Positions 20,601 through 24,069 of a DNA stretch of 24,070 bases are shown one piece after another. Numbering within the stretch: position 1 is the first letter of the stretch; the number at the start of each line of letters is the position of its first letter. Source of the DNA: a virus; IMG/VR virus record IMGVR_UViG_3300033146_000406, positions 1 through 24,070 of that record; one strand, written 5' to 3'. The position numbers and the translations under genes are program-made. The notes beneath the pieces are model-generated. The model saw only the letters and a list, made by a program, of their open reading frames with translations, searched no databases and was not told where the DNA came from.

Positions 20601-21368
20601 TTACCTTGGGTGTGTTGTGTTTATTGATAACCTCTTATTACCTCTTCTTACGTAGTTACAGATGGACTTTCCGATGATGGAGTCATCTGAGTAAGTCTCA
20701 GAGCCATCTCCAATATACTCCCCTTTACTTTGGGCAACTGGCCTATTCATCTCATCGTATATGAAAGTATATGCTTCATTAGTAAAGAATGGGTCTTTCA
20801 ATTGGATAACTTCCATCCTTATGTCTTCCTCTAGGGCAGCAATCATTAGAGGCCTATTTGCCCCTGTGGTATACCATCCTGGTACTTTCTTTTGCACGGG
20901 TTTGGAACTCCTTCTTTCTTTCACCAGCTGGATGTGGTAATATAGGTTAGGATAACCTTGTTCCTGTAACCCAGATATTACACCCTCTCCGATGTCGTTA
21001 CTTTCTACTGCTAGGAGGGCTTGGTTATATTCCATCCCAGTTTCTCCTAATAAGTCCCGTAAACGATTTATAGGAAGCCTACCCTTGAAAGCGGCATATT
21101 CTTCCCCCGCCTCGTTCATAACGGTGAAAGCAGAGTAGTCAGCAGCCCTACCTGTAGAAACGTCCGACCCAATTACAAACTTCATGTTGGGTTCAGGGTG
21201 TTTAAAGATAAGGAAGTTCCCGTCTAGCCTCCTTTCAATTACTGGGGAATCCTGGAGGTCTTCCTCTATAGCTTTGATATCTGCTAAGTCAAAGACTGTA
21301 TTTCCAGATGCTAAGAAGTCTGCATCGATCTCTTGTGCAGTCCTTTTAGCCCCCAGAGACCTTCTCAT
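20601..21368 (-). CDS. terL: terminase large subunit, C-terminal nuclease fragment
   Basis: This is the RNase H-fold nuclease domain of the large terminase, which cuts concatemeric DNA at the start and end of packaging. Candidate metal-binding acids are Asp69 in FVIGSDVSTG, Glu122 in LLAVESNDIG and Asp228/Asp229 in YSDDSIIG, the usual three-acid spacing. The frame is open upstream of the ATG to 21488, and that stretch reads as terminase linker (WSESLFGGNEFNPIKIKWDL, then HPDRDIEWYK). The ATG is therefore an internal methionine, and the domain is the continuation of the preceding fragment after a -1 frame change near 21461-21480. The stop codon abuts the portal start. As annotated, the isolated nuclease domain would have no ATPase. 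Confidence 0.85.
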   Translation of the reverse strand: MRRSLGAKRTAQEIDADFLASGNTVFDLADIKAIEEDLQDSPVIERRLDGNFLIFKHPEPNMKFVIGSDVSTGRAADYSAFTVMNEAGEEYAAFKGRLPINRLRDLLGETGMEYNQALLAVESNDIGEGVISGLQEQGYPNLYYHIQLVKERRSSKPVQKKVPGWYTTGANRPLMIAALEEDIRMEVIQLKDPFFTNEAYTFIYDEMNRPVAQSKGEYIGDGSETYSDDSIIGKSICNYVRRGNKRLSINTTHPR

Positions 21369-21412
21369 GGTCTTGTACCATTCTATGTCTCTATCGGGGT
21401 GTAAATCCCATT

Positions 21413-22660
21413 TTATCTTAATAGGGTTAAATTCGTTACCCCCAAATAGTGATTCTGACCAAAATTGCCAATCCCAAAAGCTGTTGAGTTAAGAATCGCA
21501 GAACCTCCCGTGTTGTGATTTATATAATTATTAGAAGTTATATAGGAATGGTCCCCCTCTACTTGAATGTCAACTATTAATTCCCTAGTCTTTTTTACTA
21601 CTCTTAGCTTCGATATATATAAAGTAGGTTTCCTCTTGTTTTTATACAGGATGCCTTCAACCCTCTTCTCAGTAACGTTGTACCCAAGGAGCCTTAGCCG
21701 GTTACTTATCTCAGCCTTAGTATGCCCCTCTTTTCGTAAGGCCAGTATTAATCCCTTTCTAAGTAAATCCCCATTACGGGACCCTTGAAATGAGGTGAAG
21801 GTGTTTTGTAAATTCCCGTAAGCTTTTGACACATTTTCAGACCCAGACAAAAGTTGCAAGTTTCTGTAGTAGTTATTTTTCCGGTTATCATCCTTGTGGT
21901 CTACTTGTAGACCTTCCTGAATATCCCCGATAAAGTGAGAGAAAACTAACCCACTTACGCTTTTCATAAAAGTCTTAAGCTTTTTCTGATCCGTCCTGTA
22001 TACCCCATCCCTAGTTAAAGGTACTCTTAAATAGCCATCTTTATTCTCTCGAGCCTTTCTTATGTTACCGGTCCTCTGGTTTACTATGTTACCCCAGGAG
22101 GATATTTGGAACTTTGGGAACCCCTTAATGGTAACCCACCTTTCAGGCTCCCTAGCAAGTTCTTCCCTATTAGGTCTAACCTTTGCTAGTCTCCTAGTAA
22201 CGTTTCGTTGGATTACATATAAATCCTTTTCTATGATTTCCTCTATGGTTTTCCAGCCTTGAGGAGTGAGTAGCCTATGCTTAGGAGTCCCTCCCAGAGT
22301 TTCCCCTTTATCATCCTGTACGTACCAGGTTTCAAGCTCTCCCTTGTTTACCCCATGAGTGATCTTTTTCCAAACCCCTTTATGGGTAAAGGCCTCGTAG
22401 CCTTTAATCTCCTGTTGCCCCAGTTTATCAGGAGCAAAAAACCCAAGGGTAGTGTTGATTACTTTCCCATCTTTCTTTACGAGGATGGGAGTAGAGGGGA
22501 TAACGCAACTTAAAGTGGGCATTGCTGATGCCCAGATTCCCTCTGCATATCTCATAAAAGCAGTCTCATCCATTACTAATAGGGTTAAAGCATCAGACCT
22601 ACCAGCATCCTCAGAAGTAGGAACCGATATATAAAAAGTATGGAAGGTTTGAATAAGCAA
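21413..22660 (-). CDS. terL: terminase large subunit, middle fragment containing an intein
   Basis: The first 51 residues are extein. From about residue 11 they read SVPTSEDAGRSDALTLL, followed by Walker B (VMDE, acidic pair at 31-32) and a segment ending PTLS. An intein occupies residues 52-383. Extein then resumes with TGGSAILNSTAFGIGN, the coupling motif (motif III) of large terminases, before the frame loses homology and stops at 21413. The called start at 22660 is a TTG upstream of the homologous part and is probably not used, since this is the continuation of the preceding ATPase fragment in another frame. The C-terminal nuclease continues in the -1 frame near 21461-21480. After splicing and with frames restored, the parts give an ordinary ATPase-nuclease terminase. 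Frame breaks on both sides of the intein are odd, because virtually every other gene here is intact. Confidence 0.85.
   Translation of the reverse strand: MLIQTFHTFYISVPTSEDAGRSDALTLLVMDETAFMRYAEGIWASAMPTLSCVIPSTPILVKKDGKVINTTLGFFAPDKLGQQEIKGYEAFTHKGVWKKITHGVNKGELETWYVQDDKGETLGGTPKHRLLTPQGWKTIEEIIEKDLYVIQRNVTRRLAKVRPNREELAREPERWVTIKGFPKFQISSWGNIVNQRTGNIRKARENKDGYLRVPLTRDGVYRTDQKKLKTFMKSVSGLVFSHFIGDIQEGLQVDHKDDNRKNNYYRNLQLLSGSENVSKAYGNLQNTFTSFQGSRNGDLLRKGLILALRKEGHTKAEISNRLRLLGYNVTEKRVEGILYKNKRKPTLYISKLRVVKKTRELIVDIQVEGDHSYITSNNYINHNTGGSAILNSTAFGIGNFGQNHYLGVTNLTLLR
21512..22507 (-). other. intein with HNH homing endonuclease, inserted in TerL
   Basis: This is a 332-codon in-frame insertion between extein residues S and T (PTLS / TGGS). 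It begins with Cys1 in block A (CVIPSTPILVKKDG). Block B has the TPKHRLLT signature, whose His lies about 77 residues in. It ends with block F/G (IVDIQVEGDHSYI, then NYINHN), the terminal His-Asn being followed by Thr+1. These are the residues needed for protein splicing. The centre holds a NUMOD4-like segment (ERWVTIKGFPKFQISSWGNI), an HNH motif (LQVDHKDDNRKNNYYRNLQL) and a helix-turn-helix-like tail (HTKAEISNRLRLLGYNVTEK), so it appears to be a complete homing cassette using an HNH rather than a LAGLIDADG nuclease. The insertion point, between Walker B and the coupling motif, is a highly conserved part of the motor, as is usual for inteins. Confidence 0.93.
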
Positions 22661-23009
22661 ACCTAATCCGTCTTAGAAGCCTTTTAGCAACCCTATCCTT
22701 AAGAGATATGATGGTTACTGACTTATAAGAGTGGAAAAGAGTTAACCACAGGATATAAGCCCCTAATAACTCCGAAAGGCCCATTTGCCGGGCTTTTAGG
22801 ACGATATTAAACCGGTGGTTTAGAAATTCCCATAAAGCCCTTTTCTGGAAAGGGTAAAGAGCAAACTTTACTCTTCCTCGGATAGGGTGAACTACGAAGT
22901 AGTAAGTTGTAATGAAGTAGAAAGGGTCCCTAGCACATTTTGCCAACTCTTGTAAATGAGTCTTTGTAAGGCCCCTATTTATTTCGATGATCTGCCTGCG
23001 TCTTGCCAT
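22611..23009 (-). CDS. terL: terminase large subunit, N-terminal ATPase fragment
   Basis: This 132-residue frame is the front of the phage large terminase, the ATP-driven motor that packages DNA through the portal. An adenine-binding-type segment (ALYPFQKRALW, about 50-60) precedes a Walker A-like element, KARQMGLSE, at 72-80, which has Leu where many relatives have Lys or Gly-Lys before Ser/Thr. Residues 98-125 (ending SNLPYF) match the strand and helix that follow Walker A. The frame then leaves homology and stops at 22611. The rest of the ATPase continues in the +1 frame (next entry), with the break near the T-run at 22633-22637. Beyond the frame change, the join lacks roughly 20 residues, including the usual NGS-type strand found in T4 gp17 and relatives. 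This is either a real lesion or an assembly or sequencing error. Confidence 0.85.
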   Translation of the reverse strand: MARRRQIIEINRGLTKTHLQELAKCARDPFYFITTYYFVVHPIRGRVKFALYPFQKRALWEFLNHRFNIVLKARQMGLSELLGAYILWLTLFHSYKSVTIISLKDRVAKRLLRRIRFAYSNLPYFLYIGSYF

Positions 23010-23055: not shown

Positions 23056-24069
23056 CTATTTTAATAATCTATCCATCATTAATTTAAACCATAGCCCTAT
23101 TTCGTAGGGAGGAGTATTCGCAACAGTTAGCCTTCCCTTATTTATTAGTGTTTTCTGGCTATAGTCGCAAGAAGTACCAGGATAACATAAGCGGAAGTCA
23201 TCAGGAATACCCTGAATCCTTGCCATCTCCCTGGGGCTCATCTGTAAGCCATCAGGGTTAAACTGGCGGTTAGTTTTCCGAACAGTCTTAGGAAAAGAGC
23301 TCTCCCTGTTGATATAAACTCCGGGGGCATAGTGCATATTAGCTTTCTCAGCCTTGTACCGGGTTAAATCCGGATTGTCTTTCCAGTATTGTTGTAATTC
23401 CCGCAGCGTACTTTTAAAACCTCCATAGACGGTTATTTCTTCATCTAAGTCTTCCCTGAAGTGGCCATTTTCGGGTAGGTTAGCCAAAAGCTCTTCTGAG
23501 GATTGAGTACTCCAAAGGGGCTTCGGCCTGGATAGGAGGAATTTAGCCTTTTTCTGAGAAGGTAGGTCTTTTCGTATCCCCATTATTAATAACCTCTTCC
23601 TGGATAGCTGGGAATTGCCAAAACTGGAAACGGACCCACTCCAGAAGACTAAGTTATAGTTACTAAAGATATCTGCGAAGTCTTCCTTTGAGTAAGTGTC
23701 TAAAAGTTTCGGCAAATTCTCCAATAGGAAGTATTTTGGGAAAAAAGCATGTATCCCATGTATGAAGAGGTTTAAAGAAGGCTCATCTTTGTGTGAAGTA
23801 TTCCTTTTACCCCTTGATAAAGCAAATACTGAAGACATTCCACATTTAGGGTGTCCTACTATAACATCCACTGACTCTACCGGTATGCTCAGGTTTTCTG
23901 AATAGGGAGTGTCTGAGAAATTTAGGTGAAACTGGTTTGGATATCCACCTACTAAGTAGTCTCGTCGACATTCTACCGCCCATTTGACATCTATGTTTGT
24001 GTCTTTATAAAAGGGATGCAGGATTACTCCATTACCTGACGAAAGGCCTATTACTGAATATGAACTCAT
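23056..24069 (-). CDS. DNA (cytosine-5-)methyltransferase
   Basis: This 337-residue protein carries the ordered motifs of C5 cytosine methyltransferases, which transfer a methyl group from S-adenosylmethionine to cytosine in DNA. A motif I-like stretch lies at residues 5-34 (GLSSGNG, then WAVE). Motif IV is at 68-80 with the probable catalytic Cys76 in GHPKCGMSS, motif VI ENL at 117-119, motif VIII QLSRKR at 154-159, motif IX near 278-292 (SPREMARIQGIPDDF) and a motif X-like VANTPP near 316-321. The usual GGPPCQ of motif IV reads GHPKCG, so it is divergent, but the cysteine is kept. The region for target recognition, about 170-265, is short. The start is an ATG one base from the window edge; motif I sits where expected for a complete N-terminus, although an upstream start cannot be excluded. 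It lies 46 bp before the terminase gene and may protect phage DNA from host restriction (inference). Confidence 0.88.
   Translation of the reverse strand: MSSYSVIGLSSGNGVILHPFYKDTNIDVKWAVECRRDYLVGGYPNQFHLNFSDTPYSENLSIPVESVDVIVGHPKCGMSSVFALSRGKRNTSHKDEPSLNLFIHGIHAFFPKYFLLENLPKLLDTYSKEDFADIFSNYNLVFWSGSVSSFGNSQLSRKRLLIMGIRKDLPSQKKAKFLLSRPKPLWSTQSSEELLANLPENGHFREDLDEEITVYGGFKSTLRELQQYWKDNPDLTRYKAEKANMHYAPGVYINRESSFPKTVRKTNRQFNPDGLQMSPREMARIQGIPDDFRLCYPGTSCDYSQKTLINKGRLTVANTPPYEIGLWFKLMMDRLLK

Follow-up and report, generated by a model that had tools for sequence, protein, structure and literature searches.

A predicted I-HmuI-type HNH intein in a frame-broken phage terminase gene belongs to a family found at three neighbouring terminase sites

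Results

The insert and its place in the terminase gene

In this study, which was based on one stretch of viral DNA of 24,070 nt (IMG/VR record IMGVR_UViG_3300033146_000406, positions 1 to 24,070; hereafter, the window), we analysed an insert in the terminase gene TerL. Both the gene and the insert are on the minus strand. The insert comprises 332 codons without a stop (22507..21512 in the window ORF reading), starts with CVIPST, contains GGTPKHRLL and ends with NNYINHN. In TerL, it is preceded by PTLS and followed by TGGSAILNST. The original prediction of an intein at 21512-22507, for which no strand had been given, was exact in its coordinates, and translation bore out the PTLS and TGGS flanks that it had named. 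Directly upstream of TerL there is a gene for a C-5 cytosine DNA methylase (23056-24069), and such a gene is also found upstream of TerL in the related contigs L003, L004, L005, L006, L007, L010 and L019.

The N-terminal splicing half, which was delimited by fold and profile matches, covers residues 1-106 of the insert (22190..22507) and includes Cys1 and T74PKH77. It is followed by an I-HmuI-like homing nuclease in residues 122-292 (21632..22144; Pfam, profile, model and alignment) that consists of NUMOD4 (122-165), HNH_3 (187-226, with D203-H204 and N216) and a helical, helix-turn-helix (HTH) tail (248-292). The C-terminal splicing half, which was placed by alignment and the model, occupies residues 296-332 (21512..21622) with block F, VDIQVEGDHSY, and block G, NHN. 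The class 1 splicing residues C1, T74, H77, D313, H331, N332 and T+1 are all present in the window, as are the HNH catalytic residues D203, H204 and N216, which align with the DH and N of I-HmuI (1U3E). In the alignment of 24 homologues, T74, H77, D313, N332, D203, H204 and N216 are invariant; C1 is shared by 23 of the 24, the exception being L012, and the penultimate His is replaced by Ser, Arg, Gln or Lys in five. Arg, Gln or Lys stands in its place in L005 (4939-5940), L017 (2652-3653) and L126 (2055-3077). The Cys1, block B TPKH, HN terminus and Thr+1 that had been proposed from the window are therefore not only present but nearly invariant in the family.

Profile and structure comparisons

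On the window sequence alone, Pfam matches to HNH_3 (1.3e-9) and NUMOD4 (4.9e-9) were found, and Intein_splicing was matched at 4.7e-7 and 30.2 bits, below its 35.8-bit cut-off. Nothing was obtained at threshold for PF01844, the Pfam HNH family, in the window, and the nuclease belongs to HNH_3. LAGLIDADG was absent among the Pfam matches, and the region between blocks B and F was covered by NUMOD4 and HNH_3. In the PHROGs comparison, HNH endonuclease families matched the centre of the insert and terminase families the pieces on either side.

A profile of 16 homologues from the contigs (alignment A3), all 16 of which match both HNH_3 and Intein_splicing, was compared with the PDB. Its positions 120-282 matched I-HmuI (1U3E residues 3-160) with an E-value of 6.5e-23, and known mini-inteins were matched at 4.3e-8. 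Solved inteins, including Spl DnaX and Ssp DnaB, match the N-terminal part of the profile, and some of them its C-terminal end. As judged from sequence, the homology to I-HmuI and to the mini-inteins is far beyond chance. An AlphaFold2 model of the intein (pLDDT 86.5), for which the fold matches were ranked with Foldseek, showed a HINT fold assembled from both ends and aligned with the Ssp DnaE intein (1zd7) with a Z of 18.8 and an rmsd of 2.7 over 150 residues. With the nuclease left out, model residues 1..332 align with the splicing domains of the DnaE, DnaB and RecA inteins (Z up to 18.8), and residues 122..282 align with I-HmuI with a Z of 15.4. Because of these profile and fold matches and the presence of the catalytic residues, a full I-HmuI-like enzyme is predicted within the splicing domain, and the insert is, on its sequence and model, a predicted class 1 intein with a complete NUMOD4-HNH-HTH nuclease.

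These results agree with the original prediction in that intein models are matched and that the centre is NUMOD4-like and HNH rather than LAGLIDADG. The HTH-like tail that it had described also holds; the profile match at 120-282 shows that this tail is the remainder of the nuclease.

Insertion sites and the distribution of the family

A TerL profile that was built from 31 intact relatives of the window TerL matched T4 gp17 at 8.6e-37, with the Walker B motif, the C-motif (the coupling motif) and the nuclease domain aligned. The PTLS/TGG junction falls at gp17 PVIS/SG, and NSTP falls at gp17 TTTP. Hence, as had been proposed, the window insertion follows Walker B and precedes the C-motif, from which it is nine codons away.

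Three insertion sites were recognised in this TerL family, all of them occupied by homologous I-HmuI-type inteins. Site I is a G/T junction between Walker A and Walker B (L083, L124 and, as an intein tail, L049); site II is the PTLS/TGG junction of the window; and site III is an NS/TP junction in the C-motif (L001/L100, L005, L007, L010, L011, L012, L013, L017, L019, L037, L059, L069, L114, L116, L120 and L126). The +1 residue is Thr at every inserted intein. The window site is not unique, since L042, L052/L053, L070, L076, L093 and L105 also use PTLS/TGG. The combination of nuclease and insertion point that had been singled out in the window is thus real but not a singleton, being shared by at least six other contigs, with more inteins at the two neighbouring sites. 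L010 and L124, which both come from metagenome 3300033146, have similar TerLs, with the intein at site III in the former and at site I in the latter.

Intein-free relatives, which had been suggested as a check, were found in number: 62 TerL loci are continuous across sites II and III, and all 62 have Thr at both +1 positions. Empty-site alleles such as these are to be expected if an intein is mobile, and the closest of them at site II, L004, has 80% amino acid identity. Position -1 (within 22508-22519) is Ser in the window, whereas the close relatives that lack the intein (L004, L006, L026, L027 and L029) have Ala there; it is possible that the Ser was acquired by co-conversion with the intein.

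A scan of the contig collection with the window intein alone returned zero relatives, so no near-copy was found in that collection, and relatives were recovered only with an alignment of four as the query. In the intein tree, the inteins of each insertion site form a clade of their own (site II, 100/99, with the window inside; site III, 93/93; site I, 100/99), and the inteins are scattered over a TerL tree of 85 loci with at least 14 presence/absence changes. L083 differs from L087/L089 solely by the exact intein insert, with 99.4-99.7% identical flanks, and the same is true of L069 and L073, whose flanks are 99.7% and 100% identical. These near-identical pairs with and without the intein come from sites I and III; no such pair was found at site II. 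Since the nearest empty relative there has only 80% amino acid identity, it is from the wider family that we infer recent movement at this site. A tree that is split by site, patchy presence and clean inserts are what site-specific homing predicts.

Homologous I-HmuI-type inteins are also present in DNA polymerase I of the gut phages L008 (3001-3990; MT121960) and L009 (2890-3873; MT121964), where they are inserted at an HG/TTSGRLSS junction. The stretch in MT121960 is annotated merely as 'DNA polymerase 1', and the one in MT121964 has no annotation.

A terminase frame that is broken on both sides

The original prediction of an intein in TerL stands, but it had missed that TerL is frame-broken on both sides. 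Apart from the intein, the host gene has no single intact frame because of two frame-breaking deletions, both of which were located by DNA alignment with L004. The N-terminal piece with the Walker A side (22611..23009, an ORF that matches phrog_5989 at 2.2e-24) runs into a stop at the first break (22627..22632), a net loss of 77 nt that spans the site I position and removes about 26 codons, including residues that are invariant in the 31 relatives. The piece from Walker B (LLVMDE) to PTLS (22508..22627; frame reading and DNA alignment) is in the frame of the intein and not in that of the N-terminal piece. At the second break (21461..21462), 13 nt are lost; it is located about 50 nt beyond the 3' end of the intein, and site III is 24 nt 5' of it. 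The C-terminal piece with the nuclease domain (20601..21440), an ORF that is 80% identical to L004, again shares the frame of the N-terminal piece, so that only the intein and its immediate flanks (22627..~21463) are in another. All of these pieces are on the minus strand.

No other frame breaks were found in the window, where about 24 other gene matches against the L004 contig are collinear and each in one frame; random assembly noise across the contig can thus be dismissed. The 13-nt loss in the L004 alignment rules out a single-base homopolymer slip at the second break, and programmed frameshifting could not rescue TerL, because the first break also deletes the 26 or so codons with invariant residues. 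The dN of the TerL pieces is about 0.11-0.22, which signifies strong purifying selection, dS being saturated in most pieces so that only dN is readable. As the pieces are still highly conserved, the damage is either recent or an assembly error. The TerL structure model had a pLDDT of 77.7.

Two further lesioned intein-bearing TerLs were observed in metagenome 3300033146. In L012 (831-1799), the site III intein lacks Ser-1 and Cys1, and its TerL has a further in-frame loss; judging by these absences, this intein is probably unable to splice, or it is misassembled. L019 (3001-3606) contains a 202-aa site III mini-intein from which NUMOD4 and HNH have been lost in frame, and its TerL is frame-broken upstream of the mini-intein.

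Discussion

The reading that we favour, with a probability of roughly 93%, takes the insert to be a mobile class 1 intein with an I-HmuI-type nuclease that excises itself from an intact TerL and homes into empty alleles. Its anatomy, homology and fold, the precise empty sites, the site-specific clades and the patchy distribution were all observed, and splicing and DNA cutting would be expected by analogy with I-HmuI and the mycobacteriophage TerL inteins. In an intact TerL precursor, attack by Cys1 would be followed by transfer to Thr+1 and cyclisation of Asn332, which would restore the packaging motor. When a co-infecting phage has an intein-free TerL, the nuclease would nick or cut that allele at the conserved codons for PTL(S/A)-TGG, and its repair would copy the intein in. 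The deposited copy cannot yield a spliced TerL because two deletions disrupt the gene. Moreover, no branch in the site II clade of the intein tree is longer than that of the window intein (1.04), so the activity of this intein may be impaired. A nuclease of a type that is itself known from phage introns could also point to a non-splicing nuclease insertion or to a group I intron that carries an HNH gene, for which the ShiLan element and the I-HmuI intron of SPO1 offer models. However, the open frame is in register with the extein codons next to it, neither half of the splicing domain is missing, every catalytic residue is there and a HINT fold is seen in the model, and we consider such an element extremely improbable.

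The origin of the breaks is less clear-cut. We give an even chance to their being assembly or sequencing errors, in which case TerL would be intact, intein included, in the actual phage. No other gene of the window is frame-broken relative to the L004 contig, and the retained signature of purifying selection implies that the break, if real, is recent. Assembly graphs can tangle in TerL, a conserved gene in which contig ends often fall and relatives have exact words of up to 25 nt in common. In addition, L012 and L019, the two others with TerL lesions, come from the one metagenome, which is rich in related TerLs. Errors of this kind are harder to reconcile with deletions of 77 and 13 nt, which are not homopolymer slips, and with the fact that all of the pieces look like one lineage that is nearest to L004. 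That the breaks are real, with the intein stranded in a recently defective phage or a decaying prophage, comes in our estimate a little short of even odds. Two independent frame breaks in TerL with zero elsewhere, the lesions in L012 and L019 and the long branch of the window intein all fit such decay, although none is seen elsewhere in the 24 kb and the lesions may share a technical cause. It is also conceivable, if very improbable, that the deletions are homing scars that were left when related site I and site III nucleases cut TerL and the breaks were misrejoined. This proposal stems from the positions of the losses, since the 77-nt loss spans site I and the 13-nt loss is 24 nt from site III; if it is true, intein invasion can kill its host gene.

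Inteins are common in mycobacteriophage TerL, where the sites TerL1-a to -e, TerL6-f and Pham3880-g have been described; several of these inteins splice, two cut empty alleles and the two nucleases tested carry LAGLIDADG motifs (PMC5050341). Like the window intein, they lie in functional motifs of the TerL ATPase domain, TerL6-f being in the C-motif (PMC5050341). The window intein differs from them in its NUMOD4-HNH-HTH nuclease of the I-HmuI type and in its PTLS/TGG site nine codons before the C-motif. I-HmuI (1U3E) shares its domain order and fold with the entire central domain of the window intein, but it is encoded in an RNA group I intron, whereas the window enzyme forms part of a protein-splicing element. 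PMC5050341 credits the first report of HNH inteins to Dalgaard et al. (1997). Like the window intein, these are class 1 with HNH rather than LAGLIDADG, but they differ in host gene and lineage. Homologues of the window intein are the TerL and PolA inteins of related uncultured phages (MT835790, MT121960, MT121964 and IMG/VR contigs), which have the same architecture and are 30-42% identical over the full length. These are inserted at site III, at site I or in DNA polymerase I at HG/TTSGRLSS, and only some of them at site II. In the part of the literature that we searched, no description of I-HmuI-type inteins in TerL was found.

TerL inteins and HNH inteins were each already known, and it is the radiation over three sites that is the interesting part. 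The broken TerL of the window serves as a warning that a dead host gene can go unnoticed when only the insert is considered in calling an intein. What is added here is that, within one TerL family, three neighbouring sites are occupied by a single lineage of I-HmuI-type inteins, whose tree follows the site and not the host. This family offers a natural series for studying how the target of an HNH intein moves by a few codons and how nucleases of one type pass between RNA introns and protein inteins.
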